Positions 3,345-42,355 are shown, counted from the first letter of the stretch. The stretch is 42,355 nt of DNA from a virus (IMGVR_UViG_3300031951_000385:1-42355); one strand, 5' to 3'. Translations and numbers: made by a program. The notes: a model not told the origin generated them from the letters alone.

Positions 3345-3886
3345 TCTTCTCCAAGATCGCGCCTTTACCTACGCACAGATATGTCTTGGTGGATTCCTAC
3401 TTCACACACAAAACTCCGTGTGGATTTGTTGAAGCAATGTGGGTCGGAGTCACAAGCATCCCCGGCAGAGCGTGGGGAATCAATATCATTCTTCGGGATG
3501 GTGGTGCTTTATATCGTAATCTCCCTCCTCATAGTATCGGATTTAATACTGAGAACTTTGGGTGGACTATTCAGCAAGCTCAACTTTGGGACTGCTACTC
3601 CTACCACTTCACCATCGTCCAAAGCCCAATCCTGCGAGGTCTGCGGATGCAAGCTAAAGTAAGGAACGAATACCACACAGGAGAATACCTATTCCATGTC
3701 ACCCATGTAGATGATGGGTGGTCAGACTCACCAGACCAAGATAAAGAGTTTTACTTTATCAAGCTAGACAATGGCAGGCTAACCATCCAGCCTACGAATA
3801 GAATCACATTCATAGATTCTAGTTTTATCGTTAACGATAATCTCCCAGAACTCAAACTAAGCGAAACCATATATTCCTGCGAATGA
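3341..3886 (+). CDS. hypothetical protein
   Basis: A 181-aa, probably all-beta protein rich in aromatic residues. No catalytic motif is recognised. No signal peptide or membrane segment is seen. It overlaps its neighbours by 4 nt on both sides. Near the C-terminus the residues SFIVNDN are encoded by a perfect copy of the dispersed palindrome. A 93-residue frame overlaps it (3381-3662) but lacks a plausible start context. Confidence 0.7.
   Translation: MIFSKIAPLPTHRYVLVDSYFTHKTPCGFVEAMWVGVTSIPGRAWGINIILRDGGALYRNLPPHSIGFNTENFGWTIQQAQLWDCYSYHFTIVQSPILRGLRMQAKVRNEYHTGEYLFHVTHVDDGWSDSPDQDKEFYFIKLDNGRLTIQPTNRITFIDSSFIVNDNLPELKLSETIYSCE
3825..3840. repeat. dispersed palindrome, perfect, intragenic
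   Basis: TTATCGTTAACGATAA, an exact consensus copy near the 3' end of the gene, 43 bp before the glycosyltransferase start. It is read in frame as Ile-Val-Asn-Asp. Confidence 0.9.
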
Positions 3887-4989
3887 GATTCCACATACTC
3901 GGCTTGCCGCACACAGTTTCAAGCAAAACATATAACGCCTGCGCCTATACCCAGAAGGTAGTCAAATTTGGAAAGATGATGACCGAGCGCGGCCATGAGG
4001 TCTTGCACTACGGACACGAAGATTCCGATCTACAATGCACAGAACATATCACAGTCTTAACCAACGAAGACTTTGAAAAGAGCTACGGAACGCATGACTG
4101 GAGAAGCAAATTCTTCAAGTTCAATACTGGCGACCATGCCTACCAAACCTTCTTCAAGAATGCCATCAAGGAAGTAGGGAAGAGGAAGCTCAAGAATGAT
4201 TTCATCCTGCCATTCTGGGGAAGCGGAGTCAGACCAATCTGTGACGCGCATCCCGATCTAATTTGTGTTGAGCCGGGGATAGGTTATGCTGGTGGACATT
4301 GGGCTAGGTTCAAAATCTTTGAATCCTATGCAATCTACCATGCCTACTGCGGACTCAAGAATGTAGGCCAATGCAATCAAGATTGGTATGAGGTAGTAAT
4401 CCCAAACTATTTCGATGTAGATGACTTTGACTACTGCGACCAGAAAGAAGATTACTTCTTGTATCTGGGCCGTGTATACAGCGGAAAAGGTGTAGATGTT
4501 GCTATCCAAGCCACCCAAATAGCAGGCAAAAAGCTAGTGATAGCAGGCCAAAAAGAGGATGGTTACAAGCTACCAGACCATGTTGAGTATGTCGGATACG
4601 CCGATGTTCCTACGAGAAAGAAGCTCATGTCTAAAGCTAAAGCCAGCTTCCTTGCTTCTATGTATGTCGAGCCATTCGGTGGGGTTCAAATCGAGAATCT
4701 TCTATCTGGAACTCCAACTATAACGACAGACTGGGGTAGTTTCGCGGAGAATAATATCCACGGAAAGACAGGTTATAGATGCAGGACTATGGGAGACTTC
4801 GTAGATGCCATCAATAACATCGACCAGATCAAGCCATACGATTGCAGAATGTTTGGAGAGAACTTCAGCCTAGAGAAAGTAGCTCCAATGTATGAGAAAT
4901 ATTTCGAGGATGTCCTAGATGTATACCAAGGAAAAGGGTGGTATGCCGAAGGTAATGGTCTATATGCCCTAGAGAAATATTATCCATAA
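3883..4989 (+). CDS. GT4-like glycosyltransferase
   Basis: A 368-aa GT-B fold enzyme. The N-terminal Rossmann half starts MRFHILGLPHTV. The C-terminal donor-binding half starts near residue 190 with YFLYLGRVYSGKGVDVAIQA, followed by LVIAGQ, VEYVGYA and the signature EPFGGVQIENLLSGTP (about 264-279), where the two Glu are the E-x7-E motif of retaining family 4 enzymes. It would transfer a sugar from a nucleotide donor; the acceptor is unknown (phage DNA base, host surface glycan or virion protein). It overlaps the preceding gene by 4 nt. Confidence 0.85.
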   Translation: MRFHILGLPHTVSSKTYNACAYTQKVVKFGKMMTERGHEVLHYGHEDSDLQCTEHITVLTNEDFEKSYGTHDWRSKFFKFNTGDHAYQTFFKNAIKEVGKRKLKNDFILPFWGSGVRPICDAHPDLICVEPGIGYAGGHWARFKIFESYAIYHAYCGLKNVGQCNQDWYEVVIPNYFDVDDFDYCDQKEDYFLYLGRVYSGKGVDVAIQATQIAGKKLVIAGQKEDGYKLPDHVEYVGYADVPTRKKLMSKAKASFLASMYVEPFGGVQIENLLSGTPTITTDWGSFAENNIHGKTGYRCRTMGDFVDAINNIDQIKPYDCRMFGENFSLEKVAPMYEKYFEDVLDVYQGKGWYAEGNGLYALEKYYP

Positions 4990-6061: not shown

Positions 6062-6429
6062 GCGACACGCCAGAGACGGATGCGATTGTCAGAAACGCAG
6101 CGACAGCCGATCACCCACCAACTCGGCTTGCGGCCACGCTAACTGTGAAATGCGAAAAACTTGAACGCGAGCGCGACGAGGCGAGGGAGATAATAAAAAT
6201 TGTAGCACAAGATAAAGATAAAACCATTGAACAACTTATCGTAGAACGAGACTCTAACAGAAAAGCATTTGAAACCTTACAAGGTCTTTATTCTAATGAG
6301 ATTGCCAAGAATAGAAATTTAGAGCGAGACGAGGCGCGGGATGTATTGCGAGAAATCGCCGAAGCAAGCGGCTTCGACAACATAGGAAACTGGGCAAGGA
6401 ACAAAGCAAGAAACGCAATTTATCGTTAA
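6058..6429 (+). CDS. coiled-coil protein of unknown function
   Basis: A 123-aa protein. It begins MSDTPETDA, a start common in small phage proteins, followed by a long charged coiled coil (about 30-105, Glu/Arg/Lys heptads) and a helical C-terminus. No enzymatic motif. The last codons and the stop (Tyr-Arg-stop) are encoded by a perfect copy of the palindrome at 6420-6435. Confidence 0.65.
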   Translation: MSDTPETDAIVRNAATADHPPTRLAATLTVKCEKLERERDEAREIIKIVAQDKDKTIEQLIVERDSNRKAFETLQGLYSNEIAKNRNLERDEARDVLREIAEASGFDNIGNWARNKARNAIYR

Positions 6430-6435
6430 CGATAA
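6420..6435. repeat. dispersed palindrome, perfect, at gene junction
   Basis: TTATCGTTAACGATAA, exact. It supplies the stop codon of the coiled-coil gene and fills the space to the acetyltransferase start at 6439. Confidence 0.9.
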
Positions 6436-6945: not shown

Positions 6946-7334
6946 ACTGGGACGAATACGGAATAAGCCTAGCCCAAGTCGCCGCCCTCAAAAGCAAAGA
7001 CCCATGGCAAAAAGTCGGCGCCGCCATCCTAAGAGAGGATAACACAATAGGAGGTATAGGATACAACGGCTTCCCCCAAGGAGTAAAAGAAGACTGGGAG
7101 AACAGAGACGAAAGAAGATTACTTGTAGTCCACGCAGAACAAAACGCCCTCAGATACCTTAAACCGGGGGAAGGAAAGACACTCTACTCCACCCTCCTCC
7201 CCTGCAATGACTGCCTAAAAACAATAGCCGCCTACCAAATAAAGAGAGTCCTCTACAAAGACATCTACCTCCATGATTCCTCCTCCCTACTCACAGCTAA
7301 GAAACTAGGCATAGAACTAGTCCAATACGAATGA
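6942..7334 (+). CDS. dCMP deaminase-like cytidine deaminase
   Basis: A 130-aa zinc enzyme. It has the HAE motif (His about 64) with Glu as proton shuttle and PCNDC (Cys about 88 and 91) completing the zinc site. The N-terminal SKDPWQKVGAAI and GYNGFPQG match deoxycytidylate deaminases. It would convert dCMP to dUMP, feeding dTTP synthesis for phage DNA. No thymidylate synthase is seen in the window. It overlaps both neighbours by 4 nt. Confidence 0.88.
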   Translation: MNWDEYGISLAQVAALKSKDPWQKVGAAILREDNTIGGIGYNGFPQGVKEDWENRDERRLLVVHAEQNALRYLKPGEGKTLYSTLLPCNDCLKTIAAYQIKRVLYKDIYLHDSSSLLTAKKLGIELVQYE

Positions 7335-7519
7335 ACCAGAACCATAAATCCCGAATCGCCGACCTAATCGAGGAAGTCATCAAGGCATCCAAATCAGACA
7401 AGGAATCCCTAGATAGAATCCACTACCTAGGCCACATAGACAGAAGCCAGAAACAATACCGAGTCTACCTAACCTTCACAGAAGCCAAAGCACCAATATC
7501 AGACAGGAACCTAGACTAG
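7331..7519 (+). CDS. hypothetical small protein
   Basis: A 62-aa basic and helical protein with no recognised domain. The start overlaps the deaminase stop (ATGA). It is the last gene before a 418-nt non-coding region. Confidence 0.6.
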   Translation: MNQNHKSRIADLIEEVIKASKSDKESLDRIHYLGHIDRSQKQYRVYLTFTEAKAPISDRNLD

Positions 7520-7670
7520 GCAGCATACAAAAATATAAACACAAAAAGGTAGTTTCTCTCGTTGTCTGAGTGCTTCGCTCAACGATCAGCCAATCCTACA
7601 GAGGCTGCATAGGGGTCACCGCCACCGCCATCAGTCTCACGCAAGAAAGAGATTCCTTGCTTGACTACAG

Positions 7671-7688
7671 CTCACGCTCACGCTCACG
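7671..7688 (+). repeat. three tandem CTCACG hexamers
   Basis: Exact triple repeat followed by CGCGC and T-rich sequence, in the only long non-coding stretch of the left half. Iteron-like, but short. Confidence 0.6.
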
Positions 7689-7698
7689 CGCTTTTCTT

Positions 7699-7714
7699 TT
7701 ATCGTTCACGCTAA
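7699..7714. repeat. degenerate dispersed palindrome
   Basis: TTATCGTTCACGCTAA, two substitutions, both in the right arm. It lies about 30 bp upstream of the -35 box at 7744. Confidence 0.5.
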
Positions 7715-7743
7715 AAAAAATCAGGAAATAATTTGCGAAATAG

Positions 7744-7771
7744 TTGACGCGAAAGGGATTTCTGGTAGTAT
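7744..7771 (+). promoter_or_regulatory. promoter of the 238-aa gene
   Basis: TTGACG at 7744-7749, a 16-nt spacer, TAGTAT at 7766-7771. The leader is about 160 nt and structured. Palindrome variants flank it at 7699 and 7912, which would suit autoregulation. Confidence 0.65.
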
Positions 7772-7911
7772 TAATTCGTCACCGAGAAAGGTTCTCGCCT
7801 GTGACATTTGATATTTGAGAGTCTGATTTGTTCGCTTCATGTTTCGCATTCCGTTTTTCGGGCTGGAATTAATCCTGTGGAAACATAACACGAAAATCCG
7901 CATTCGTTGAA

Positions 7912-7928
7912 TTAGCGTTCAACGATAA
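7912..7928. repeat. dispersed palindrome, odd-length variant
   Basis: TTAGCGTTCAACGATAA, a 17-nt form with one extra central base, like the copies at 10117, 11722 and 12182. It ends 9 bp before the ATG at 7938 and overlaps a CGTTGAA/TTCAACG hairpin. Confidence 0.55.
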
Positions 7929-7937
7929 GTCTGGACA

Positions 7938-8654
7938 ATGGAAACTCGAAACATGAAAACAAAAGAGAAAAATGCTGTAGCCGTTAAAGCCACTAAGGTT
8001 GAAATTGTGCGTGAGGTTGGATCGATCGATTCAATGCTAACGCAGACTCGAAGCGGGTATATTCATGCAGACAAGAAACTGAATGATATACCAACGGCTG
8101 ATCTGGTTAATTATGCGGTTGAAAAACTCACAGCTGGCCAATCTGCTTTGCGCCAAGCTTGCTTGTTTACTGGTGCAATCTATAAGACCTGCACTGAAGA
8201 AAAGGCCAAGCTTTATGCTGACGGGTTGTCAGTGGCTTGGGGCGGAATGTCGAAGGATATTCTGTCTATCGGCAAAGCTTTGCCGGCTTTGGAATCAACT
8301 GGCTTGGCTCTGGCCAATGTGAAGGATTTGTATGGCCTGCGCGAAGTTAGAAAAATCCTATTGGGTGATGATAAGACGCAGACAAGTAAAGCCGTTGCTT
8401 TACTCAATGAGGGTAAAGCCCCACGCAAGGTTCGTGAGGCTGTCCTAGGAACCTCTAAAGGTGAAAAGGAACCTGCGCCAAAGGAAGAACCCGCCGAGAA
8501 GATAGAAGATAGCGCGCTTGTGATTGAAACGCAATTCATCAGACTGGCCGAGCGCGTTTCACTCATGATCGATCACGACGACAGAGTGAAGATCGCTTTG
8601 CAGATTTTCGCGAAGCTGAAGCTGGCTGGCTATGCATTGCAGAAGATGAAGTGA
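7938..8654 (+). CDS. unknown 238-aa protein, monocistronic; candidate regulator
   Basis: Not recognised. It is mostly helical: residues about 50-130 are a compact helical region, KALPALESTGLALANVKDLYGLREVRKIL and the following TSKAVALLNEGKAPRKVREAV could include a helix-turn-helix, then an acidic Pro/Glu/Lys linker (about 175-195) and a final helical domain. It has its own promoter, a structured leader and a terminator, and palindrome variants lie on both sides of its promoter. That makes it a candidate for the protein that reads the palindrome, by inference only. An internal ATG at codon 6 could also be the start. Confidence 0.7.
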   Translation: METRNMKTKEKNAVAVKATKVEIVREVGSIDSMLTQTRSGYIHADKKLNDIPTADLVNYAVEKLTAGQSALRQACLFTGAIYKTCTEEKAKLYADGLSVAWGGMSKDILSIGKALPALESTGLALANVKDLYGLREVRKILLGDDKTQTSKAVALLNEGKAPRKVREAVLGTSKGEKEPAPKEEPAEKIEDSALVIETQFIRLAERVSLMIDHDDRVKIALQIFAKLKLAGYALQKMK

Positions 8655-8665
8655 ACAAGAAAAAT

Positions 8666-8696
8666 GGGAGTGTCCTTCGGGATGCTCCCTTTTTTT
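8666..8696 (+). terminator. rho-independent terminator, probably bidirectional
   Basis: GGGAGTGTCC, a TTCG loop, GGATGCTCCC, then seven T. It follows the 238-aa gene by 11 nt. On the minus strand the same hairpin is followed by ATTTTTCTT, so it may also end the convergent gene at 8726. Confidence 0.9.
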
Positions 8697-8725
8697 GTGC
8701 CAAAATTTCCTGGCGATTTTACCTT

Positions 8726-9325
8726 TTAGGTTTCGACTAGCTCATCCTCATCCTGCTCTTCTTCGTTCTCGTTAACGATAGAATTTATGGGTCGCGTTTC
8801 CCCTTCCAATTCTTGATTGATATGTTTGGCCGTAACAAAACCTATCTCATCCTTCTCTGGCGGCGTTATGTGGAGAGAGATCATCGCATTCACGCTCATT
8901 GCCCGTTGGTTCTGAACTTCTTGCTGATCCAGTCCCAGCGTCCTCCTCGCAGTCTTGTCTAGCTCTGTGAGTAGTTCCAAGCGTTCCTTTTGTTCTTTTG
9001 TGCCTTTTAGTTTCTTTCTCTCATCAATCACTTTCCTCTCCTCTTCTAGCTGCTTCAGCATAAACCATAGATGCTGTTCGCTTTCCTCTCCCATCTTGTG
9101 GATTAGCTTTTTCTCTATTTTCGCTGATGCCTGCGTTCTGATTAGGTCGCGCTGCTTTGCCCATTTCTCTCTAACCATCACATTCCTAAAGTAAAACGGA
9201 GACAGCCCTTTGTATTGTGGGAGTTTTGTTATGTCTGCAACATCAAGCCCGGCCATGTAGTGTGATTTGATCTCCTCCCAATTCCACTTCTTTGGTCGGC
9301 CAATGTTTTCTGGGTTTCTATCCAT
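8726..9325 (-). CDS. terminase small subunit-like protein
   Basis: A 199-aa protein. The N-terminus IGRPKKWNWEEIKSHYMAG followed by ADITKLPQYKGLSPFYFRNV looks like the HTH DNA-recognition domain of small terminases, with REKWAKQRDLI after it. A long charged coiled coil (about 70-125) would serve oligomerisation, and the C-terminus is very acidic. Small terminases bind the packaging site and recruit the large subunit, which is not in this window. The gene stands alone on the minus strand between two plus-strand units. One palindrome lies in its 3' end (8766) and another just upstream of its start (9324). A regulator with similar architecture is the alternative. Confidence 0.5.
   Translation of the reverse strand: MDRNPENIGRPKKWNWEEIKSHYMAGLDVADITKLPQYKGLSPFYFRNVMVREKWAKQRDLIRTQASAKIEKKLIHKMGEESEQHLWFMLKQLEEERKVIDERKKLKGTKEQKERLELLTELDKTARRTLGLDQQEVQNQRAMSVNAMISLHITPPEKDEIGFVTAKHINQELEGETRPINSIVNENEEEQDEDELVET
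8766..8781. repeat. dispersed palindrome, intragenic
   Basis: TTCTCGTTAACGATAG, two edge substitutions, core TCGTTAACGA intact. It is read on the minus strand as Ile-Val-Asn-Glu. Confidence 0.75.
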
Positions 9326-9339
9326 ATCGTGGACGATAA
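9324..9339. repeat. dispersed palindrome variant at divergent start
   Basis: ATATCGTGGACGATAA: arms TATCGT/ACGATA intact, centre changed. It overlaps the first bases of the small-terminase-like gene and lies about 50 bp upstream of the plus-strand promoter at 9390. Confidence 0.6.
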
Positions 9340-9389
9340 TCTGTCCACATTTTCATGTCAAACTTTCTTCATAAATCCACAAATAAATG

Positions 9390-9417
9390 TTGACAGGAAA
9401 TATATATGTGGTATTAT
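9390..9417 (+). promoter_or_regulatory. strong sigma70-like promoter
   Basis: TTGACA at 9390-9395, a 16-nt spacer rich in A/T, TATTAT at 9412-9417: the best consensus match in the window. It drives the cassette region 9.6-15.6 kb. The AT-rich run 9398-9422 may also melt easily. Confidence 0.8.
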
Positions 9418-9496
9418 ATATATAGTCGATGGAGTAGTTCCATCTGACCATTGTTTCTTTTACATTTTAAATGTTTTCAGTTTCGGTTTTTCGTGG

Positions 9497-9528
9497 CCCC
9501 TGCCGCCTTTCTCTTTTGGCGGTGGGGG
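9497..9528 (+). promoter_or_regulatory. strong leader hairpin
   Basis: CCCCTGCCGCC (9497-9507) pairs along all 11 positions, with two G-U pairs, to GGCGGTGGGGG (9518-9528) around a pyrimidine loop. There is no T-run after it, so it is not a simple terminator. It starts the long leader of the first cassette. Confidence 0.6.
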
Positions 9529-9542
9529 TAATGCGGCGCAAG

Positions 9543-9558
9543 TTCTCGTTAACGATAA
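9543..9558. repeat. dispersed palindrome in the leader of the first cassette
   Basis: TTCTCGTTAACGATAA, one substitution. It sits at the apex of a stem formed by CGCAAGTT and AACTtgaTGCG, similar in layout to the paired-hairpin elements further down but without their conserved internal loop. Confidence 0.8.
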
Positions 9559-9619
9559 CTTGATGCGGTGACAAGCCCGTAAAGCATAACGCAAACGCAG
9601 AGTCACAACCACGAACAAT

Positions 9620-9862
9620 ATGATCACTAAAAAACTACTGAAGGATAGGTTAGAATACCTATGCAATATCACAGGCATTCGCCATGAGCTTTCCTGCCAG
9701 TCATTTGGCAATGGTAAAGGTTACAGCGTGATGCATGAAGGTCGCCATGTGATGACCTACGGCCATGTGCCTGCATCTGTTTTAGATGCCTGCCTCACAG
9801 CATATACAAAAGGTTATTATGCTTGCGCGGAACATCTTGCTCCACGGAGGTATCAAGCATGA
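9620..9862 (+). CDS. hypothetical protein
   Basis: An 80-aa protein of mixed alpha/beta type with several His and Cys residues and no recognised motif. It is the first gene behind the strong promoter at 9390 and has a leader of about 195 nt. There is no clear Shine-Dalgarno; CACGAACAAT before the ATG resembles the A-rich leader of the following cassettes. It overlaps the next gene by 4 nt. Confidence 0.65.
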   Translation: MITKKLLKDRLEYLCNITGIRHELSCQSFGNGKGYSVMHEGRHVMTYGHVPASVLDACLTAYTKGYYACAEHLAPRRYQA

Positions 9863-10098
9863 CCACCAAGGAAATCACAACAGAGAAGGGTAACACCTAT
9901 ATTTGTCCAGTCTTCACGGCTGATGAATATCAGGATATGACATTCGGCTTGTCTAATGAGGGATGGTGTCTCACCTGCGGCGAACTCGTCGATGGTGTGG
10001 AACCAGACGCTCGCAAGTATGAATGTGATTGCTGTGAGAAACGCACAGTCTATGGCTTGGAAGAGCTATTGATGATGGGCATCCTTCAAATTGAGTAA
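9859..10098 (+). CDS. zinc-ribbon protein
   Basis: A 79-aa protein when started at the ATG overlapping the previous stop (ATGA). WCLTCGEL and YECDCCEKR provide the four cysteines of a zinc ribbon in the middle. Unknown function. The paired-hairpin element begins 2 nt after its stop. Confidence 0.65.
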   Translation: MTTKEITTEKGNTYICPVFTADEYQDMTFGLSNEGWCLTCGELVDGVEPDARKYECDCCEKRTVYGLEELLMMGILQIE

Positions 10099-10100
10099 TT

Positions 10101-10177
10101 AGCCACTCTGCTCTGGTATCGTTTAACGATAGCAGGGCAGCAGGCTGACTACAACCAGTCAGTAAAACACGAAACAA
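10101..10177 (+). ncRNA. paired-hairpin intergenic element E1
   Basis: Hairpin 1: AGCC/GGCT (10101-10104 with 10143-10146), internal loop ACT/CA, CTGCTCTG/CAGGGCAG (10108-10115 with 10133-10140, including a U-G pair), apex a palindrome variant. Hairpin 2: CTGACT-ACAACC-AGTCAG, sharing two bases with the foot of hairpin 1. Then AAAACACGAAACAA and the next ATG. Both stems differ in sequence from the other copies but keep pairing. Confidence 0.75.
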
Positions 10178-10444
10178 ATGAACATATCAGAACTAAAGAA
10201 AATCTGCGAGGATGCAGAAGCGTATAGAAACCAAGTATGGCTGAACATTCAACTTCCAAATGATGAGAGAATTTCATTCAAGGTGAAAGATGACGCAAAG
10301 AGGACTGCAATCATGCACGCCTGCCGTAGAGGTGGGTTGTGGGCAGGATTTCAAACTCTTTGCAGAGGGGCAATAGGCAATGAAGACCATGCTGGTCGCA
10401 AAGAACCCTTTTGGGGAACAAAGAAAGAAAGCATCTTAAAATGA
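10178..10444 (+). CDS. hypothetical protein
   Basis: An 88-aa helical and basic protein with no recognised domain. It follows element E1 directly and has no Shine-Dalgarno. It overlaps the next gene by 4 nt. Confidence 0.6.
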   Translation: MNISELKKICEDAEAYRNQVWLNIQLPNDERISFKVKDDAKRTAIMHACRRGGLWAGFQTLCRGAIGNEDHAGRKEPFWGTKKESILK

Positions 10445-10785
10445 AAACACGCACACAAATCATTGATGAGGCATACCAAGCACTCTATGACGCATACTCA
10501 AAAGCGTTTGGAGACTGGTGGCTAAACTCTTCTGTGAGAACTTCAAGCTGGGGATTCGATATAGTAGAATACCAAGGCGAAGAGTTAATTCGGTCTACAG
10601 ATGGATATGTAGAGTTGAGAGTTGAACAAGTCAAAGTAATCGGAAGGAACTCTTGGAAGTATTCTGTATTCCAAGTATTTCCAGAAGATGTTGGAAAAGA
10701 ATATGAATTTGCTTACGGGCATAACATTTCCCGTGTTGCTGAAAAATTCATGGAGTTACAACTTCAAATGAAACTTGCAGAATAG
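10441..10785 (+). CDS. hypothetical protein
   Basis: A 114-aa protein started at the ATG overlapping the previous stop. N-terminal helices, then a beta-rich middle with several Trp and aromatic residues, then a C-terminal helix. No motif recognised. Element E2 begins within 3 nt of its stop. Confidence 0.65.
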   Translation: MKTRTQIIDEAYQALYDAYSKAFGDWWLNSSVRTSSWGFDIVEYQGEELIRSTDGYVELRVEQVKVIGRNSWKYSVFQVFPEDVGKEYEFAYGHNISRVAEKFMELQLQMKLAE

Positions 10786-10787
10786 TT

Positions 10788-10858
10788 AGACACTCCGCTT
10801 CTCGTTAACGATAACGGGGAGCGGCAGTCTGACATACAACCATGTCGGAAACACGAAA
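10788..10858 (+). ncRNA. paired-hairpin intergenic element E2
   Basis: Hairpin 1: AGAC/GTCT (10788-10791 with 10827-10830), loop ACT/CA, CCGCTTC/GGAGCGG (10795-10801 with 10818-10824), apex with TTCTCGTTAACGATAA (10799-10814, sharing its first bases with the stem). Hairpin 2: GACAT-ACAACC-ATGTC (10831-10846). Leader AAACACGAAA before the ATG. Confidence 0.75.
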
Positions 10859-11536
10859 ATGATAATACATGAAACGCAAGACATCGTAGCAATTGCTACT
10901 CGCAATTCGACCAATCGCAAGACTGGTCGCTCTGTCCAGATATGGATTCTTGATGCCACAATGCATCCTGTAGAGTCCAGACGCTCTGGGCATGACGCCG
11001 ACAACCAATGCAATGGATGCCCGTTCGCCTCCAATAATGGATGCTATGTGAACGCGAATCCTCTTGGTGCAATCTGGCGAGCCTATCAGCGGGGTTCATA
11101 TGAATACCTTCAGATGGGAACTCGCGAGTGGCATGACTTCTTCTCTGTCCCATTTGTCCGCTTCGGCGCATACGGCAATCCATCCCATCTCCCAGTCGAG
11201 ATGATCGATAGTATCGCCCGGCTCTCCAAGCGTATCACAGGATATTTCCATGATTGGCATCAAATGCCAGCACCACTTGCCAAGGCATATGGCCGCTACT
11301 TCATGGCTTCCTGTGAGCCTACCAATGTAGAGTATGCCAAGAACCTCGGCCTCCGCACATTCACTATTAGCGAGACTCCTCTCGTTAACGATATTGAATG
11401 CCTAGCAGATGCCAAGGGGCTTTCCTGCTCCGAGTGTGGGTTGTGTGACGGCAACAATCGCCGCTCATCCCTCCCATCCGTGTGGATCAATCCTCACGGC
11501 TATCAACTCAAGAAAGCTGTAGAAGTAGTCAAATGA
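10859..11536 (+). CDS. Cys-rich protein of unknown function
   Basis: A 225-aa protein. It has a KTGRSVQIWIL strand near the N-terminus, then CNGCPFASNNGCYVN (Cys about 51, 54 and 62), and near the C-terminus CSECGLC (about 190-196). The two Cys groups could bind zinc or an iron-sulfur cluster. Similar Cys-patterned proteins are common and uncharacterised in phages. A palindrome copy (11379-11394) encodes Leu-Val-Asn-Asp inside it. The gene follows element E2 and overlaps the next gene by 4 nt. Confidence 0.7.
   Translation: MIIHETQDIVAIATRNSTNRKTGRSVQIWILDATMHPVESRRSGHDADNQCNGCPFASNNGCYVNANPLGAIWRAYQRGSYEYLQMGTREWHDFFSVPFVRFGAYGNPSHLPVEMIDSIARLSKRITGYFHDWHQMPAPLAKAYGRYFMASCEPTNVEYAKNLGLRTFTISETPLVNDIECLADAKGLSCSECGLCDGNNRRSSLPSVWINPHGYQLKKAVEVVK
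11379..11394. repeat. dispersed palindrome, intragenic
   Basis: CTCTCGTTAACGATAT: core TCGTTAACGA intact, edges changed. It is inside the Cys-rich protein gene. Confidence 0.7.
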
Positions 11537-11709
11537 GAGAAGTAAAACGCTACAAACCATCCGCTCTCGCCTCACAGAAGTGGGTCGATGAGTGGGAAAA
11601 CCGCACAGACAAAGAAACCAATGATGCTCAAGACAAGTTCTTGTGGCTTCTATTGATTCTCATCGTGAACCTCGGCCTTGTCGCGCTGATGTTCGCACTC
11701 AAGTGGTAG
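11533..11709 (+). CDS. small membrane protein
   Basis: A 58-aa protein with a charged N-terminal half and one C-terminal membrane helix (LWLLLILIVNLGLVALMFAL). The ATG overlaps the preceding stop. Its stop TAG is the first base pairs of element E3. Confidence 0.65.
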   Translation: MREVKRYKPSALASQKWVDEWENRTDKETNDAQDKFLWLLLILIVNLGLVALMFALKW

Positions 11710-11787
11710 CAGACACTCTGGTTATCGTTAAACGATAGCCAGCAGTCTGCTTGCATGGTGCAAGTGGAAAACCAAACACGAAACAAA
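11708..11787 (+). ncRNA. paired-hairpin intergenic element E3
   Basis: Hairpin 1: AGCAGAC/GTCTGCT (11708-11714 with 11745-11751), loop ACT/CA, CTGG/CCAG (11718-11721 with 11739-11742), apex TTATCGTTAAACGATAG, an odd-length palindrome at 11722-11738. Hairpin 2: CTTGCA-TGG-TGCAAG (11750-11764). Leader CAAACACGAAACAAA before the ATG at 11788. The changed inner stem keeps pairing. Confidence 0.75.
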
Positions 11788-12165
11788 ATGAACACATACT
11801 ACATCAAACAAGACAACGGAGCATTCGCAGAGGTCACATTCTCTGATGGAATGTTAATCTCTATGGTCATAGAGAAGCATATCAAAGATGCCATATTCAA
11901 CGCTCACTCATTAATCAATTCGGCTATCGCTGATAAGGTAAATAAACTTTGCGATGAATTAAACATCAATGGCAAGATAAAAGAGCATCTTGGCTCAATG
12001 GAGCTTCACGAATTGGTTCATGAATCCGTAGCCAATGAGATTAATGACTATGATTATTCTGAGAAAATAGATAATTCATTAGATAACATAGACATTGACG
12101 AGATGGTATCCGAACGAGTCGAGGAGTATTTATCCAATACCTCTATCCAAGTCCGTATCAATTAG
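11788..12165 (+). CDS. hypothetical protein
   Basis: A 125-aa acidic and helical protein with no recognised domain. The start at 11788 is chosen because the leader motif ends there; an upstream GTG at 11755 would lie inside hairpin 2 of E3. It is a single-gene cassette between E3 and E4. Confidence 0.65.
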   Translation: MNTYYIKQDNGAFAEVTFSDGMLISMVIEKHIKDAIFNAHSLINSAIADKVNKLCDELNINGKIKEHLGSMELHELVHESVANEINDYDYSEKIDNSLDNIDIDEMVSERVEEYLSNTSIQVRIN

Positions 12166-12166
12166 T

Positions 12167-12246
12167 CAGACACACCGCTCATTATCGTATAACGATAGTG
12201 GGCGGTAGTCTGATAGCATGGTGCTATTAGTAAACACGAAACACAT
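12167..12246 (+). ncRNA. paired-hairpin intergenic element E4
   Basis: Hairpin 1: CAGAC/GTCTG (12167-12171 with 12208-12212), loop ACA/TA, CCGCTCA/TGGGCGG (12175-12181 with 12199-12205, one U-G pair), apex TTATCGTATAACGATAG (12182-12198). Hairpin 2: ATAGCA-TGG-TGCTAT (12213-12227). Leader AAACACGAAACACAT. Confidence 0.75.
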
Positions 12247-12681
12247 ATGAAAATAGATGATTACATTATCGACAAACTCAATGAAGAGTTTGAGTCAATT
12301 GACACCGAGGAAGCTACCAAGGATATGCTCGATGAGTCTTATCCTTTCATCAATCTAGGTGGCCCTTTCACCTATATGTCAGCTGGTCATGTGCTAGAGC
12401 ATTATGATCATTCTGCATTCCGCGAGGAGGTTAATAACTATACTGACCTCATGGTTAGAGATGGGCATTGGTATGAGTTCCAAAATAATTATTGGGGCAA
12501 GTCCGCCGAGCGTGTAGCAGATGAGTATCGCCTTGCTCTTCAGCATTGTGATCCATTCCAAGTCACAGGTGTCGAGCATCCCGGCTGGTATTACTACGAC
12601 AAGATGTCATTCTCGCAGGGCCCGTTCAATCATCCTTATGATTGCTACGATCATGCCCTAGATCAATACTACAAGATATGA
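12247..12681 (+). CDS. hypothetical protein
   Basis: A 144-aa acidic protein rich in Tyr, Trp and His. No catalytic motif is recognised. It overlaps the next gene by 4 nt. Confidence 0.65.
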   Translation: MKIDDYIIDKLNEEFESIDTEEATKDMLDESYPFINLGGPFTYMSAGHVLEHYDHSAFREEVNNYTDLMVRDGHWYEFQNNYWGKSAERVADEYRLALQHCDPFQVTGVEHPGWYYYDKMSFSQGPFNHPYDCYDHALDQYYKI

Positions 12682-12875
12682 ACAAGCCAGTAATAGATCG
12701 CCCAGAGATTCAAGGCATACTAGCTCAACTCAAGAGTCTTGATCGCGAAGGTTGGTGCTGTATGACCGATGGTTCATTTGATGATGAGGATGACTTAAGC
12801 GTCGAACTCACCATCACAGATTCCATCGCTTACATCCTTGGGAAAATACCACGCGTATCCAGCAGGAATCAATGA
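12678..12875 (+). CDS. hypothetical protein
   Basis: A 65-aa acidic protein (SFDDEDDLSVEL) starting at the ATG that overlaps the previous stop. No motif recognised. Element E5 begins 2 nt after its stop. Confidence 0.6.
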   Translation: MNKPVIDRPEIQGILAQLKSLDREGWCCMTDGSFDDEDDLSVELTITDSIAYILGKIPRVSSRNQ

Positions 12876-12876
12876 T

Positions 12877-12968
12877 CAGACACTCCGCTCATCCGAAAGG
12901 GTGGGCGGCAGTCTGGTTATCGTTGACGATAATCGGAAACCAAACGAAACAACAAACGAAACAAACAT
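12877..12968 (+). ncRNA. paired-hairpin intergenic element E5, rearranged
   Basis: Hairpin 1: CAGAC/GTCTG (12877-12881 with 12911-12915), loop ACT/CA, CCGCTCA/TGGGCGG (12885-12891 with 12902-12908), then TCC-GAAA-GGG. The apex is thus a GNRA tetraloop and not the palindrome. The palindrome TTATCGTTGACGATAA (12917-12932) takes the place of hairpin 2. An A-rich leader with two GAAACAA repeats follows to the ATG at 12969. Confidence 0.75.
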
Positions 12969-13190
12969 ATGACAACAATAATAGACACACAGGAAGGGTT
13001 GGAGATGTATAATCTTCTCCGACTCAAAAGCGCATTAAAGTTAGAAGTTGCAGGCATGAAGCATTCAAGCGGCAAGTCCGTGTATGCTCATGTCAAACGC
13101 CGATTCGGATTCAAAGGCTCGAAAGAGTCTGTCCTTCAGCAACTCATCAACTACATCAACACAACCTACGGAGTAGACTTCGTAAAATAA
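12969..13190 (+). CDS. hypothetical protein, possible DNA-binding
   Basis: A 73-aa basic and helical protein. The segment SGKSVYAHVKRRFGFKGSKESVLQQLINYI could fold as a small helical DNA-binding unit. Such short proteins sit near phage helicases, but the family is not identified. Confidence 0.6.
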   Translation: MTTIIDTQEGLEMYNLLRLKSALKLEVAGMKHSSGKSVYAHVKRRFGFKGSKESVLQQLINYINTTYGVDFVK

Positions 13191-13194
13191 AACT

Positions 13195-13335
13195 ATGAGC
13201 GCAACAGAAAGAACCCAACCAACCTGTCTTCCACCAGAGGCATACATCCGAATCATTCGCCACTGCGAAAACAATGTTCCGAAGTTTCGTTCTTCGGTTT
13301 ATCCAAAACCACAACCAACCAAAAAGACAAAATGA
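13195..13335 (+). CDS. 46-aa small protein
   Basis: A short frame filling the gap between its neighbours: it starts 4 nt after the previous stop and its TGA overlaps the next ATG (ATGA). It is basic and Pro-rich, with two Cys. No function recognised; support is from position and coupling. Confidence 0.5.
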   Translation: MSATERTQPTCLPPEAYIRIIRHCENNVPKFRSSVYPKPQPTKKTK

Positions 13336-13955
13336 AACAGACAACAATTCAAATCTATGTTGAAGAGGCTATTTGTGGCGCAACAGTATTCGCTACATCA
13401 CGCCGGACTAAATGGAGTGAGTATGGAGAAGCGATAAGCCTGCCTCTTCCAGAAGAAGAGAAGGCGTGGAAACTCATTGCTGGTGAGAATGCACAATGGG
13501 AAATTGGTAAATCCATTGAACCCAAAGAAGGGGAATTTGACGAATCGGAATGGTATAAAAACCTTTCCGAGCGCATCGAACGAGTTTGCGGAAATCGCAA
13601 ATTCAAATCCAAAGTGCGTGTCATTGATCGAGTCTCACAAGGTTATGCAGTCAAATGGTCAGTTACATTCTACTGGAATAAACCAACGGAAACTCCAAGC
13701 AAAGACACGCATGGAGTTTGGACTCTGAAAGAATACAAAGGCACTGCTCGGCGCGGAAAAGTCATAGATCAATTCGATGGCATCCTTGAATGCCTTGGAG
13801 ATGATCTTTACTGGAGACTTCCAGATGGTGAAGTTCCAGAAGGCTACGATGCGTTTCCAGACTACAATTCAGTCATCGTTTGCCAAACAATCGCAGAAGA
13901 AAAAGAAAACCCCATTTGGTGGGAATTTAAATTCAAACCTAAAAAGAAATCATAA
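13332..13955 (+). CDS. hypothetical protein
   Basis: A 207-aa protein, beta-rich, with many Trp and charged residues and no signal peptide or membrane segment. No family recognised. It is followed after 3 nt by the SNF2-like helicase, so a partner role is possible but unsupported. Confidence 0.65.
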   Translation: MKQTTIQIYVEEAICGATVFATSRRTKWSEYGEAISLPLPEEEKAWKLIAGENAQWEIGKSIEPKEGEFDESEWYKNLSERIERVCGNRKFKSKVRVIDRVSQGYAVKWSVTFYWNKPTETPSKDTHGVWTLKEYKGTARRGKVIDQFDGILECLGDDLYWRLPDGEVPEGYDAFPDYNSVIVCQTIAEEKENPIWWEFKFKPKKKS

Positions 13956-13958
13956 AAA

Positions 13959-15569
13959 ATGAACCTTCAAGCATTACTTGATACAGTTGACTTCAGTCAG
14001 CCAATGCGACTCCAGACCAAGCGTGGGTTGCGCCTTCTTCGGAAGGCGTCTCCCACTAAGGAGTTCTGGGAAATCTACAGGTCAGACAAGGAAGTGTTCT
14101 CATCCGAACTTCGGAAGCTAGGGATTCAAGTATCAGAATTCCGTGGTAATTGGGAACTTTCATGGTGGTCGAAGGATGATCTTTCCTTCCCTCCTATCCA
14201 TGACTTCTCTATCTCAGAGCAAAATGATGAGCCTATCGTTTACGATATGCCTCCTCTTTTTTGTCCAGATAACCTGTTTGAATACCAGACTACATCTGTT
14301 CAGCTTGGTCTTCGCTCGATGATGAAGTATAACCGCGCTCTTCTCGGTCATGGCACAGGCATGGGCAAGACGGCAATCGCTCTTGCTATCGCCCGTGAGC
14401 GTGGCCGTAAGGTCGCAGTCATCTGTCCAAAGCCAATCGTCACAGACTGGCATAGGATGGCGAAATACCTCGGCGTAGAAACGCATGAAGTATGTGGATG
14501 GGAATGGGTCAAGACTGGTAAGTCTAACATTGGTCGCTGGACAGATGATAAGAAGAAGGAATTCAAATATCTTCTGCCTCCAGATGTTGATCTCATCTTC
14601 GACGAGGTTCATCGCGGCAAAGGAATGGGAACACAGAACGCATACCTAGTTAGGGATGCAGTTGTTCAGAATGTCCCTTCCCTAGCATTATCGGCAACGA
14701 TAGCAGATGATCCTACCAAAATGTGGGCCATCGGCCAGTTCCTTGGCTTACACAGAGGTAGTGACTACTATCCCTTCCTGCACAGGAATGGGTGCGTAAA
14801 GACCCAATGGGGAATGCAGTTCCGTGGTGGAATGAAAGTCCTTCGTTCTCTTCACAAGAACATATTCCCTGATCGCGGTAATCGTCTCAAACCATCTGAT
14901 GTCGGTGATGCATTTCCAGAGACGCTCATCCATGCCAGAGCATTCGACATGGATAGTGCCAAGGAAATCGCTACCGAATACGACAAGCTACTGACTCGCA
15001 TCGAGGAACTGCGTATGCAGGAAAACTTCGCGGCCAATGTCCTAGCAGAGCAAACCAGAGCAAGACAAGCTATCGAGCTTCTCAAGGCTCCAGCGGTTTG
15101 TTCTCTTGCCAAGGACTTGATCGAGGAAGGCAACTCTGTCTTCATCGCAGTCAACTATGTCGAGACACTAAAGTTCATGCAGGAGGAACTCAAGACCAAA
15201 TGCACGATCCAAGGTGGTCAGAACGAACTCGTTCGCCGTGGCAATATCGATTCATTCCAGAACGATAAAGCCAGAGTAATCATAGGAATTATCCAAGCCT
15301 GCCGTGAAGGTCTTAACCTCCATGACTTGAATGGTGATCATCCTCGCGTTGCTCTCATCATGCCTACCTATTCAGTCTTCGATCTCAAGCAAGTCTTGGG
15401 TCGAGTTCACCGAGCAGGTGGTAAATCAAAATCAATCCAATACCTAGTCTACGCCGCTGGCGTTGATCTAGAAGAGGACATCTGCAATTCACTAGACAAG
15501 AAACTGAAACAAATGGATCAACTGATGGATGGAGAAGTAGACGCTTCCATCTCTCTAGTTGCCAAATAA
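13959..15569 (+). CDS. SNF2-like superfamily 2 helicase
   Basis: A 536-aa protein. Residues about 105-290 form the first RecA-like domain: Q-region LFEYQTTSVQLGL, Walker A GTGMGKTAIALA (about 131-142), CPKPIVTDW, DEVH box (about 215) and LSATI (motif III). The second domain has FIAVNYVET, VIIGIIQACREGLNLHD and motif VI VLGRVHRAGGKSKSI (about 475-489). It is an ATP-driven DNA translocase or remodeller, likely in phage replication or recombination. It is the last gene of the cassette region and ends at a strong terminator. Two weak palindrome variants (14233 and 14688) lie inside. Confidence 0.88.
   Translation: MNLQALLDTVDFSQPMRLQTKRGLRLLRKASPTKEFWEIYRSDKEVFSSELRKLGIQVSEFRGNWELSWWSKDDLSFPPIHDFSISEQNDEPIVYDMPPLFCPDNLFEYQTTSVQLGLRSMMKYNRALLGHGTGMGKTAIALAIARERGRKVAVICPKPIVTDWHRMAKYLGVETHEVCGWEWVKTGKSNIGRWTDDKKKEFKYLLPPDVDLIFDEVHRGKGMGTQNAYLVRDAVVQNVPSLALSATIADDPTKMWAIGQFLGLHRGSDYYPFLHRNGCVKTQWGMQFRGGMKVLRSLHKNIFPDRGNRLKPSDVGDAFPETLIHARAFDMDSAKEIATEYDKLLTRIEELRMQENFAANVLAEQTRARQAIELLKAPAVCSLAKDLIEEGNSVFIAVNYVETLKFMQEELKTKCTIQGGQNELVRRGNIDSFQNDKARVIIGIIQACREGLNLHDLNGDHPRVALIMPTYSVFDLKQVLGRVHRAGGKSKSIQYLVYAAGVDLEEDICNSLDKKLKQMDQLMDGEVDASISLVAK
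14233..14248. repeat. weak palindrome variant
   Basis: CTATCGTTTACGATAT: arms TATCGT and CGATA kept, one central change. Inside the helicase gene. Confidence 0.4.
14688..14703. repeat. weak palindrome variant
   Basis: TTATCGGCAACGATAG, three substitutions. It falls on the conserved helicase motif III codons, so chance is possible. Confidence 0.3.
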
Positions 15570-15574
15570 GAAAC

Positions 15575-15616
15575 GGGGCAGATTCACAGGTTAATTCCTG
15601 CGGTCTGCCCCTTTTT
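15575..15616 (+). terminator. bidirectional terminator between convergent operons
   Basis: GGGGCAGA (15575-15582) pairs with TCTGCCCC (15604-15611), with an inner CAGG-TTAATT-CCTG hairpin, then TTTTTCTTTT. On the minus strand it is followed by GTTTCTTATTT. The inner GGTTAATTCCT also occurs in leader hairpin B at 469-479. Confidence 0.9.
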
Positions 15617-15622
15617 CTTTTC

Positions 15623-15877
15623 TTATTCCTCCTTCTTTTCGTCGGGTGGTCGGCGTTCCATACCAACTCGGTAGTGCATGAACGCTAGGCCAAGATACTT
15701 GATCGCTTCCGATCCTTCTTGGTATCGCGCCCCTGTCCTCACTACCATCTGAGCGAGGAGGTTTGCCGTGCTGGCGAAGGCGTGAATTGCTTCATCCTTC
15801 TTTTCATCATTCGTTGTTGGGAACGAGAAGATCGTTTTAAGACTCTCGTTCAGTTCATTTGCTGGGTTGTTTTCCAT
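15623..15877 (-). CDS. hypothetical protein
   Basis: An 84-aa helical protein started at the ATG at 15877, which follows a good Shine-Dalgarno (GAGAGGAG) inside the end of the upstream gene. The longer frame from 15907 would begin within that gene and is rejected. The C-terminus is charged. Last gene of the minus operon; unknown function. Confidence 0.7.
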   Translation of the reverse strand: MENNPANELNESLKTIFSFPTTNDEKKDEAIHAFASTANLLAQMVVRTGARYQEGSEAIKYLGLAFMHYRVGMERRPPDEKKEE

Positions 15878-15879
15878 AA

Positions 15880-16851
15880 TTATTCTCCTCTCAAAAACTG
15901 CATCCACTCATTCTCCGCTGGATCAAACCAAGTTTTGCCTTGCAAGTCGATGAGTAATTGGTGTTCCTCAACTTCATCTGGAACTTGAGATACAACTTCA
16001 GAGTTAGACCAGTTCTCCACATTCAGAATGAGATAGCGGTGTGGTAGTGGTTTCATCTTGTCATCCTTGCCTTGAGCTTCACGGACTTTGCCGCGAACCT
16101 CTTGGCTAGATAGTTTCTCTGCCTTCGCGCATTCAAGTAGCTTCTGCATCTTGTCCTTGGACAGGTCGGCTGTAGCTACTTCAAGGTGGACTGTGAATGG
16201 AAGCATAGGGTCACGGGATTCGTGGCCCAAGACTCGGCAGGTGCGAGCGTAGTTGCTGACTGTGCTGTAGCTCTTCTTGAACTGGGCGCACAATTGATTA
16301 ACTACATTCTCATGGCCGGCATCTTCAAGTGCAACAACTGCATCACCGATGATCCATTGGCTTCCGCTTTCCAGAGTAAGACCGAAAGCAAATGCTTTGA
16401 CCCAGTCTTTAGCTTCTACATTACCTTTAGGGACGCAGCGTGTCATGCCGCCAAGGTCGAACTTCTGCGTGAAGGATGAGAGATCAAGACCCTCAGTCAC
16501 AGAGTTGACTAGCTCAAGGCTTTCATTCTCTGGATCAACTTCATTCTCTGTATCAAATACCTCAACATTATCGTTAACGATAGTCTCGGTGTTCTTGGAT
16601 TCAACAAGGTCAACGGCAGTCTCGTAGTCGAAGGCCAGCTTCTCGTAGAGTTCCGCGACCTCGTCGGCCACATTGTCTTCCAAGTATTGGTTCTTCTTTA
16701 CTTTGTCCCAAACTTTCTTGATCAAGGCATCTGTCATAGTGATCCCCTTCCACTCTTGTTGAGCAAAGGTTAACATCTGCTTGAGATAGTTGGCTTCGTT
16801 GACGAGTTGTCCCTCGTTGAGAGGGCTGAATAGTTCTAGTTTTTGTTTCAT
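15880..16851 (-). CDS. HTH protein, ParB/KorB-like DNA-binding candidate
   Basis: A 323-aa protein. The middle holds WIIGDAVVALEDAG followed by QFKKSYSTVSNYARTC, a helix-turn-helix, then a helical region PFTVHLEVATADLSKDKMQ and LSSQEVRGKVRE. This order (HTH, x-x-H-x-x-V, S-x-x-E-R) resembles the DNA-binding part of ParB/KorB-type and phage replication-associated HTH proteins. The N-terminus (about 1-150) is acidic and helical; the C-terminus is unassigned. A palindrome copy lies in its N-terminal coding part. It could act on such sites, but no direct evidence exists. Confidence 0.55.
   Translation of the reverse strand: MKQKLELFSPLNEGQLVNEANYLKQMLTFAQQEWKGITMTDALIKKVWDKVKKNQYLEDNVADEVAELYEKLAFDYETAVDLVESKNTETIVNDNVEVFDTENEVDPENESLELVNSVTEGLDLSSFTQKFDLGGMTRCVPKGNVEAKDWVKAFAFGLTLESGSQWIIGDAVVALEDAGHENVVNQLCAQFKKSYSTVSNYARTCRVLGHESRDPMLPFTVHLEVATADLSKDKMQKLLECAKAEKLSSQEVRGKVREAQGKDDKMKPLPHRYLILNVENWSNSEVVSQVPDEVEEHQLLIDLQGKTWFDPAENEWMQFLRGE
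16568..16583. repeat. dispersed palindrome, intragenic in HTH gene
   Basis: TTATCGTTAACGATAG, one edge substitution. It is read on the minus strand as Ile-Val-Asn-Asp-Asn in the acidic N-terminal part of the HTH protein. Confidence 0.85.
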
Positions 16852-30902: not shown

Positions 30903-30917
30903 TATCGTTAACGATAA
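30902..30917. repeat. dispersed palindrome, perfect, at gene junction
   Basis: TTATCGTTAACGATAA exact; with flanking bases the palindrome is 18 bp. It fills the space between the stop at 30918 and the start at 30902 and shares a base with the start codon. Confidence 0.92.
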
Positions 30918-36658: not shown

Positions 36659-36674
36659 TTATCGTTAACGATAG
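36659..36674. repeat. dispersed palindrome, intergenic
   Basis: TTATCGTTAACGATAG, one edge substitution, just upstream of the tailspike start in the 41-nt gap after the endolysin gene. Confidence 0.9.
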
Positions 36675-39009: not shown

Positions 39010-39581
39010 TATTGCTTGATGAAATAAATTGTATTTGCGTCCTTAACCGGAATAGCATCGTATTCAGCTTGCGTCAAAGCACGAATAAAATTGACTACAG
39101 GGTTGTCAGTTGGGTTGTTTTGAACGACATTTGACGGGACAGAACCCGTTGCGCCAGTAGCCCCTTGAGTTCCAATTCCTGTTGCCCCTGTAGCCCCAAT
39201 ATTCCCGACCAATCCGGTTGCTCCTGTTGATCCCACATCTCCCTGTATACCTGTAGCCCCTGTGCTGCCTTGTGATCCAATAAGACCTGTGGCTCCAGTT
39301 GATCCTTCTGGGCCTTGAATTCCTTGGACTCCTTGTGGGCCAGTTGCTCCGATTATACCTTGAGTTCCTGTTGCTCCAGTCGCACCACTTGCACCTTCAA
39401 CGCCAGTAGCTCCAGCATTACCTGTTGCACCTGTAGCTCCAAGACCTGTGGCTCCTTGTTCTCCAGTTGCGCCTGTAGCTCCTATGGGGCCGCCAGACGG
39501 GCCTGTAGCTCCTGTAGCTCCAAAACCAGAATTTCCAGTATAATCGAATTTTCCTGTAAATGGATTGAATGTTAGCCCCAT
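39009..39581 (-). CDS. collagen-like tail fibre protein
   Basis: A 190-aa protein. A short N-terminal segment ([17 protein letters not shown]) is followed by about 40 Gly-x-y triplets dominated by GAT, then a C-terminal segment [18 protein letters not shown] that looks like a small trimerisation end. A collagen triple helix is expected. The nucleotide repeats are similar to those of the larger collagen-like gene, so recombination between the two is possible. Confidence 0.85.

Positions 39582-40669: not shown

Positions 40670-42355
<1,686 letters not shown>

Follow-up and report, generated by a model that had tools for sequence, protein, structure and literature searches.

Introduction

The early genes of phage T7 are separated by ribonuclease III (RNase III) sites, such as R1.1, in which a stem carries an asymmetric internal loop. 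Here we describe five elements, E1 to E5, located between genes of the viral sequence IMGVR_UViG_3300031951_000385:1-42355, which was analysed over its entire length of 42,355 nucleotides (nt) and is referred to below as the window. Like the T7 sites, the elements combine a stem with an asymmetric internal loop, lie between early-type genes and occur several times per genome; the helix – intercistronic, supported by covariation and 17–22 base pairs (bp) long – comprises about two turns. Unlike the T7 sites, they stand at a fixed distance from the upstream stop codon, have a conserved loop, and are followed by a second hairpin (hairpin 2) that competes for one strand of the first. The fixed stop position, together with two equally stable folds, suggests that the RNA is reset, ahead of the next gene, by the ribosome terminating on the preceding one.

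Several other systems invite comparison. Cluster K mycobacteriophages carry SAS/ESAS, repeated inverted repeats of unknown function just upstream of the starts of small non-structural genes (PMC3203893). The elements described here are likewise repeats near the starts of small genes, but they are covarying RNA structures whose position is fixed relative to the upstream stop; the 13-bp SAS sequence GGGATAGGAGCCC is found only as three-mismatch matches at chance level (10 against 7.6 expected), none of them in the elements. The promoter/stem-loop cassettes (PeSL) of T4-like phages, insofar as they are described second-hand in PMC4503421, are also small intercistronic elements where gene cassettes shuffle, but by that account they differ from E1–E5 in having a promoter and a terminator U-run: a scan for sigma70-like sites found none on the + strand overlapping E1–E5, and the stems are followed by A-rich sequence and not by a U-run. 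The latter also speaks against intrinsic terminators, of which the same scan found a true example at 8666–8689. The put RNA of phage HK022, about 70 nt long, has two stem-loops side by side and an internal bulge, and is present twice per genome downstream of early promoters (PMC9378689). Paired stem-loops of this length are found here too, but the elements are intercistronic and present in many copies, and even E1 is about 680 nt downstream of the promoter, two genes in. Finally, in translation-gated refolding (the MS2 lysis gene, rpmI-rplT) an upstream ribosome alters a downstream fold (PMC12548453); the same is proposed here, with the difference that in those cases the fold hides the next start, whereas here the start is open and two folds are balanced. 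Two further candidates were rejected: integron attC sites require RYYYAAC/GTTRRRY ends whereas those of the elements are CAGAC/GTCTG (no tyrosine integrase was found among the open reading frames scanned, a part of the total), and reading revealed no CUGAUGA hammerhead core.

Results

Five elements of a conserved RNA class

The original prediction, made from the sequence of the window alone, placed five copies of a paired-hairpin RNA between gene cassettes. Base-by-base reading, by which the parts in Table 1 were assigned, shows all five at their predicted positions, each with the 3×2 internal loop ACT/CA (ACA/TA in E4), an inner stem, a second hairpin, an A-rich leader and an ATG. Folding z scores relative to dinucleotide shuffles are -5.7, -6.0, -5.0, -6.6 and -6.1 for E1 to E5 (0 of 200 shuffles as good), and the five are thereby confirmed as real elements. 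The leader that they were said to share is exact (AAACACGAAA) in E1–E4; E5 carries AAACCAAACGAAAC. A descriptor scan recovered all five on the + strand, plus three chance-like matches over both strands; since it gives 0.6 matches per strand in the shuffled window, chance is excluded for E1–E5. No Rfam family (of 4227 covariance models) reached its gathering threshold over the window, and at E≤10 the region 10050–13000 gave a single irrelevant weak match.

Nineteen related loci were gathered from IMG/VR by way of the 225-residue protein encoded downstream of E2, and elements in these loci and beyond were located by scanning for patterns of the outer stem and loop. Many 25-nt matches of the first pattern (GTGGCACCACG...CAGACACTC) proved to be one recurrent unrelated sequence and were excluded; a scan with AGACAAGC gave mostly chance matches. 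A covariance model built from 24 elements was used to search the stored loci and found elements in relatives and in little-related phages alike. It matches five sites in the window, three to six per close relative, and others in L081, L206 and the L172/G019 group. Elements are present in G011 and G012 (about 68 kilobases, kb), which have in common with the window a glycosyltransferase, a deaminase and few further genes, and in L183/G016 (45.9 kb), which has a different DNA polymerase and shares no protein with the window at a cutoff of 1e-3. A later scan added elements in L391, L395, L406, L375 and L435. The covariance search found none in the helicase relatives L221, L222 and L224: the element is therefore not fixed in the wider clade. 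The 3.9-kb element region has no match among 50,697 phage records, and scans of genome contigs found neither a host nor a prophage. E1–E5 are thus members of a conserved class of RNA that is without a match in Rfam; the literature compared was open access, and an earlier description elsewhere is possible.

The structure is well supported by covariation. RNAalifold recovered the outer stem, 3×2 loop and inner stem unprompted, and in the 24-element alignment 93.6% of cells are paired, as against 33–46% when the partner strand is slid. Eleven of 14 pairs vary on both sides, and two-sided cells number 50 compared to 13.1±2.9 in shuffles: the compensatory changes noted among the original five copies hold in this wider set. 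Across 43 distinct cores, each of the inner pairs 2–6 occurs in four to six versions, whereas the outer AGAC/GUCU hardly varies (because the set was selected for pairing its percent-paired figures are biased, and pair-type variety is the informative part). Inner pairs 7–12 contain G·U 37 times and A·C never, which fits an RNA read from the gene-sense strand and upholds the earlier use of U–G pairs as a sign of RNA.

A 3×2 loop is the most frequent size when any loop up to 5×5 is permitted. The loops are ACU/CA (34), ACA/UA (9) and AAG/UA (2), with AUA/CA, ACA/CA, AUU/CA, ACU/AA and AUC/UA once each; all 3×2 loops begin with A and end with A. This asymmetric loop may resemble the C-loop RNA motif, an asymmetric internal loop with its own set of base pairs. 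The full hairpin measures 17–22 bp with a 3×2 loop in nearly all elements, while the inner stem alone is mostly 10–15 bp. Among phages with almost no proteins in common, conservation is far higher in the outer stem and loop than in the inner stem, as would be expected were the former bound by a host or phage protein – a translation repressor, an antitermination factor, or RNA polymerase as with HK022 put, of which the neighbouring pair of stem-loops, about 70 nt in all, is reminiscent (PMC9378689). Nevertheless, put sites are few and promoter-proximal whereas these elements are repeated between genes, no RNA-binding gene common to all carriers was found, and binding would not explain the stop register described below; we regard protein binding as improbable.

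Register with the upstream stop codon

Of 55 distinct elements (counts of 50–55 given here include many orthologues), 52 lie downstream of a reading frame 35 or more codons long. In 43 of the 52, exactly 1 nt separates the in-frame stop from the 5-bp outer stem; the spacing is 0 in three and 2 in two. In E1 to E5 it is 1, 1, 0, 1 and 1 nt, so that the original statement – each copy starts no more than 3 nt from a stop codon – was true but understated. The stops are TAA (28), TAG (19) and TGA (5), and use of all three means that the base sequence is not simply inherited. Among further phages the stop is either 1 nt upstream of the stem or is strand A's own UAG, the latter register coming from a pattern that required TAG. 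The inner stem usually begins 9 nt past the stop codon. In a ribosome with a stop codon in the A site, the leading edge is about 9 nt past the stop, as is known from toeprints.

The stop register bears on whether the elements act as DNA – operators or recombination sites – with the RNA fold incidental. The tips of most copies bear variants of a palindrome, TATCG-N4-CGATA, present as 17 exact copies in the window and 23–32 in four relatives (about 0 expected), and genes are exchanged at the elements. Genome-wide, however, the spacing of this palindrome is strictly 4, in coding and non-coding DNA and in both gene orientations, whereas spacings of N3 and N5 are found within elements; G011, G012, G016, G018 and G019 lack the palindrome and their elements exist without it. 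The palindrome (TATCGTTAACGATA) is consequently ruled out as the RNA element itself and looks like an operator- or stoperator-type site. Given in addition the 37 G·U against no A·C pairs and a stop register on the sense strand, a DNA function for E1–E5 was already disfavoured and is scarcely credible.

Two mutually exclusive folds

Hairpin 2 begins inside the outer stem and not after it: the last three bases of the outer-stem 3' strand (strand B), CUG, can pair either with strand A (YAG, just past the stop) or with strand C (YRG, the 3' foot of hairpin 2). In 46 of 50 elements, as against 2.8% of shuffles, the C of GU-CUG is precisely where a stem of 5 bp or more begins. Strand A is YAG in 47 of 50 elements and strand C, by automatic count, is YRG in 46 of 48, the letters of strand C varying only within those that still pair CUG. 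Three divergent elements have changed all three strands: G012 (CTC/GAG/TTC), G011 (TTC/GAG/CTC) and L183 (TGG/CCG/CGG). The two folds differ by a median of 0.1 kcal/mol (range -2.9 to 3.4; 46 of 48 within 3); these energies are approximate, having been computed with standard loop parameters for an outer stem set at 5 bp, and vary with the way in which the folds are drawn. Of the five window copies, only E1 has the alternative as its minimum-energy fold, with hairpin 2 extended and the outer stem given up. Masking the stop plus 9 nt causes all five window elements to refold to this second state at a cost of 1.8–5.8 kcal/mol. The elements therefore possess two conserved, covarying, energy-balanced and mutually exclusive pairings: both hairpins of the original "paired hairpins" exist, but in part they exclude one another.

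We tentatively propose – with a little less than an even chance of being right – that E1–E5 are bistable intercistronic separators, two-state structures between translation units that are reset by the upstream terminating ribosome. In state 1, strands A (YAGAC) and B (GUCUG) would pair to give the hairpin of about 17–22 bp with its A..A-type 3×2 internal loop; in state 2, the CUG of strand B would pair with strand C (YRG), extending hairpin 2 to 6–10 bp and reducing hairpin 1 to its inner stem. A ribosome whose A site is occupied by the stop codon would keep strand A and the loop strand in the mRNA channel and so force state 2; once ribosomes are gone, state 1 would return. The stop register and masked folding are what suggest that the terminating ribosome picks the fold. 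Less surely, the full hairpin of state 1 may be the target of an RNase III-like nuclease or an RNA-binding protein, and the output could be RNase III cleavage, insulation, stability or protein binding. Upstream translation would thereby gate processing or stability, the unstructured A-rich leader would let the next unit start independently, and the element would insulate adjoining cassettes of a modular early operon. A structured region immediately following a stop codon is reported to reduce coupling (Chemla et al., as cited in PMC12548453), which fits an insulator.

A number of considerations weigh against such a switch. With many of the 50–55 elements being orthologous, the counts overstate independence, though several lineages agree. 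The fold energies carry the approximations given above, and the unconstrained fold of E2–E5 favours an outer stem longer than the 5 bp used to calculate them. Since the AUG of the next gene is unpaired in either fold, no direct influence on initiation is apparent. The overlap may have been conserved for the sake of folding or coaxial stacking and not of switching, and the model is drawn from sequence and computed folds.

The T7 comparison made in the original prediction is a reasonable one, given the helix length (17–22 bp with a 3×2 loop) and the early-type operon setting. On an account in which RNase III processing is the whole function, cutting of the intact hairpin in vivo would free the mRNA of each cassette, its 3' end protected and its 5' leader unstructured, and the hairpin 2 overlap and the stop distance would be secondary. 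A helix of this length with an asymmetric loop, repeated three to six times per phage between genes of a single operon that follows a strong promoter-like site, is in keeping with such processing, for which cleavage is as yet a prediction. RNase III, however, needs no conserved AGAC/GUCU stem, no invariant loop adenines and no 1-nt stop spacing, and the conserved second partner of CUG is left unexplained: none of these features had formed part of the original prediction. Processing by RNase III alone is for this reason unlikely, but as the enzyme suits the 17–22 bp full hairpin and not the inner stem the two ideas can be joined, with the untranslated state alone being a good RNase III substrate.

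It is possible, though we would stop short of calling it probable, that the elements constitute a widespread new class of stop-registered bistable "cistron separator", a standard joint for early cassettes in largely unrelated phages, allowing cassettes to be plugged in, swapped or removed without losing independent expression. If the switch is true, small early genes would be exchangeable by way of a shared modular connector while each unit stays expressed, and the state of the connector would report translation of the upstream gene; it would offer a testable mechanism for early regions that are compact yet prone to shuffling, and a compact genetic insulator. Without the switch, there is still a covariation-supported RNA class outside Rfam in phages with barely related proteomes.

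Operon context and gene exchange

The elements lie in an operon behind a probable promoter, the best match in 7000–16500 (Table 1), with counterparts in G001, G002, G003, G007 and L081. From 9620 to 12969 each gene junction is either an ATGA overlap (four) or an element (five).

Table 1. Elements, operon units and palindrome examples in the window. Hairpin 2 is given in its extended form; bits are covariance-model scores; aa, amino acids.
Feature	Positions	Strand	Details
Probable operon promoter	9390–9417	+	TTGACA-16-TATTAT, TG before -10; 11/12
Operon genes 1–2	9620–10098	+	80 and 79 aa; ATGA overlap at 9859; E1 after second stop
E1	10096–10177	+	TAA 10096–10098; A TAGCC 10100–10104; loop ACT 10105–10107; inner hairpin 10108–10140; loop CA 10141–10142; B GGCTG 10143–10147; hairpin 2 10145–10162; leader; ATG 10178; 52.1 bits
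E1–E2 cassette	10178–10785	+	88 and 114 aa; ATGA at 10441; replaced, lost or moved in relatives
E2	10783–10858	+	TAG 10783–10785; A TAGAC 10787–10791; loop ACT 10792–10794; inner hairpin 10795–10824; loop CA; B GTCTG 10827–10831; hairpin 2 10829–10848; leader; ATG 10859; 50.3 bits
E2–E3 unit	10859–11709	+	225-aa protein (PHROG 2554, unknown function) and 58-aa gene; ATGA at 11533
E3	11707–11787	+	TAG 11707–11709; A CAGAC 11710–11714; loop ACT; inner hairpin 11718–11742; loop CA; B GTCTG 11745–11749; hairpin 2 11747–11767; leader; ATG 11788; 65.8 bits
E3–E4 unit	11788–12165	+	single gene, 125 aa
E4	12163–12246	+	TAG 12163–12165; A CAGAC 12167–12171; loop ACA 12172–12174; inner hairpin 12175–12205; loop TA; B GTCTG 12208–12212; hairpin 2 12210–12230; leader; ATG 12247; 79.1 bits
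E4–E5 unit	12247–12875	+	144-aa and 65-aa genes; ATGA at 12678
E5	12873–12968	+	TGA 12873–12875; A CAGAC 12877–12881; loop ACT; inner hairpin with GAAA tip 12885–12908; loop CA; B GTCTG 12911–12915; hairpin 2 12913–12936; leader; ATG 12969; 60.3 bits
TATCG-N4-CGATA (examples)	3826–3839, 6421–6434, 9325–9338, 16569–16582, 30903–30916, 36660–36673		

Comparison of relatives shows that the elements mark cassette boundaries, the intervening genes being exchanged, lost or moved. E1 is followed by fam9 and fam10 in the window and L011, directly by fam3 in G001, G003, L010 and L012, and by fam23, fam12, fam25, fam27 or fam32 in other relatives. The fam9–fam10 pair follows a different element in L017, and in L016 the E1–E2 junction has shrunk to 51 nt. 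In G001 an E1-type hairpin precedes the leader and gene start of the window's E2, an arrangement consistent with recombination at the shared leader. Exchange and loss at the elements, the 51-nt junction included, would also be seen if a stable post-stop hairpin passively guarded 3' ends or limited reinitiation, with copies spread alongside cassettes by recombination, and the reduced coupling attributed to Chemla et al. in PMC12548453 agrees with this. A passive hairpin nonetheless predicts neither the conserved loop nor the 1-nt spacing nor the balanced alternative folds, and we judge it decidedly improbable. Cassette exchange, covariation, the G·U bias and occurrence in related phages together give strong support to the original placing of RNA structures between gene cassettes; its interpretation as a whole is partly supported.

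Other features of the window

A 199-aa protein is encoded at 8726–9325 (-). Its predicted structure, a short-helix N-terminal domain and a long helix, has no match in PDB, and the protein has none in Pfam. The gene's promoter-like site (TTGACA-17-TATCGT) overlaps the palindrome at 9325–9338, and the protein family co-occurs with TATCG-N4-CGATA and was not found in phages without the motif; the protein is a candidate regulator or small terminase. The leader after the operon promoter (9525–9608, +; also L145:19850–19948) matches the type-P1 twister ribozyme below threshold (22.2 bits, E 0.008; 20.2 bits in G003): the core UAAUGC, CAAGCCCG, GCAGAG is nearly invariant in five relatives and stem P1 is not matched. 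The open reading frame at 9329–9571 is probably spurious.

The glycosyltransferase encoded at 3883–4989 (+) is 72–75% identical to products of Synechococcus phage genes (S-CAM7, ACG-2014f); the other window proteins tested are below 60%, and no known phage was found to match the E1–E5 region at the DNA level. At 39177–39521 and 41143–42332 there are arrays of collagen-like tail fibre repeats with a 9-nt period. In L221 (6020–7540), one of the element-free helicase relatives, an intergenic word, CCCTCCGCA, is seen by eye to be repeated after stop codons.

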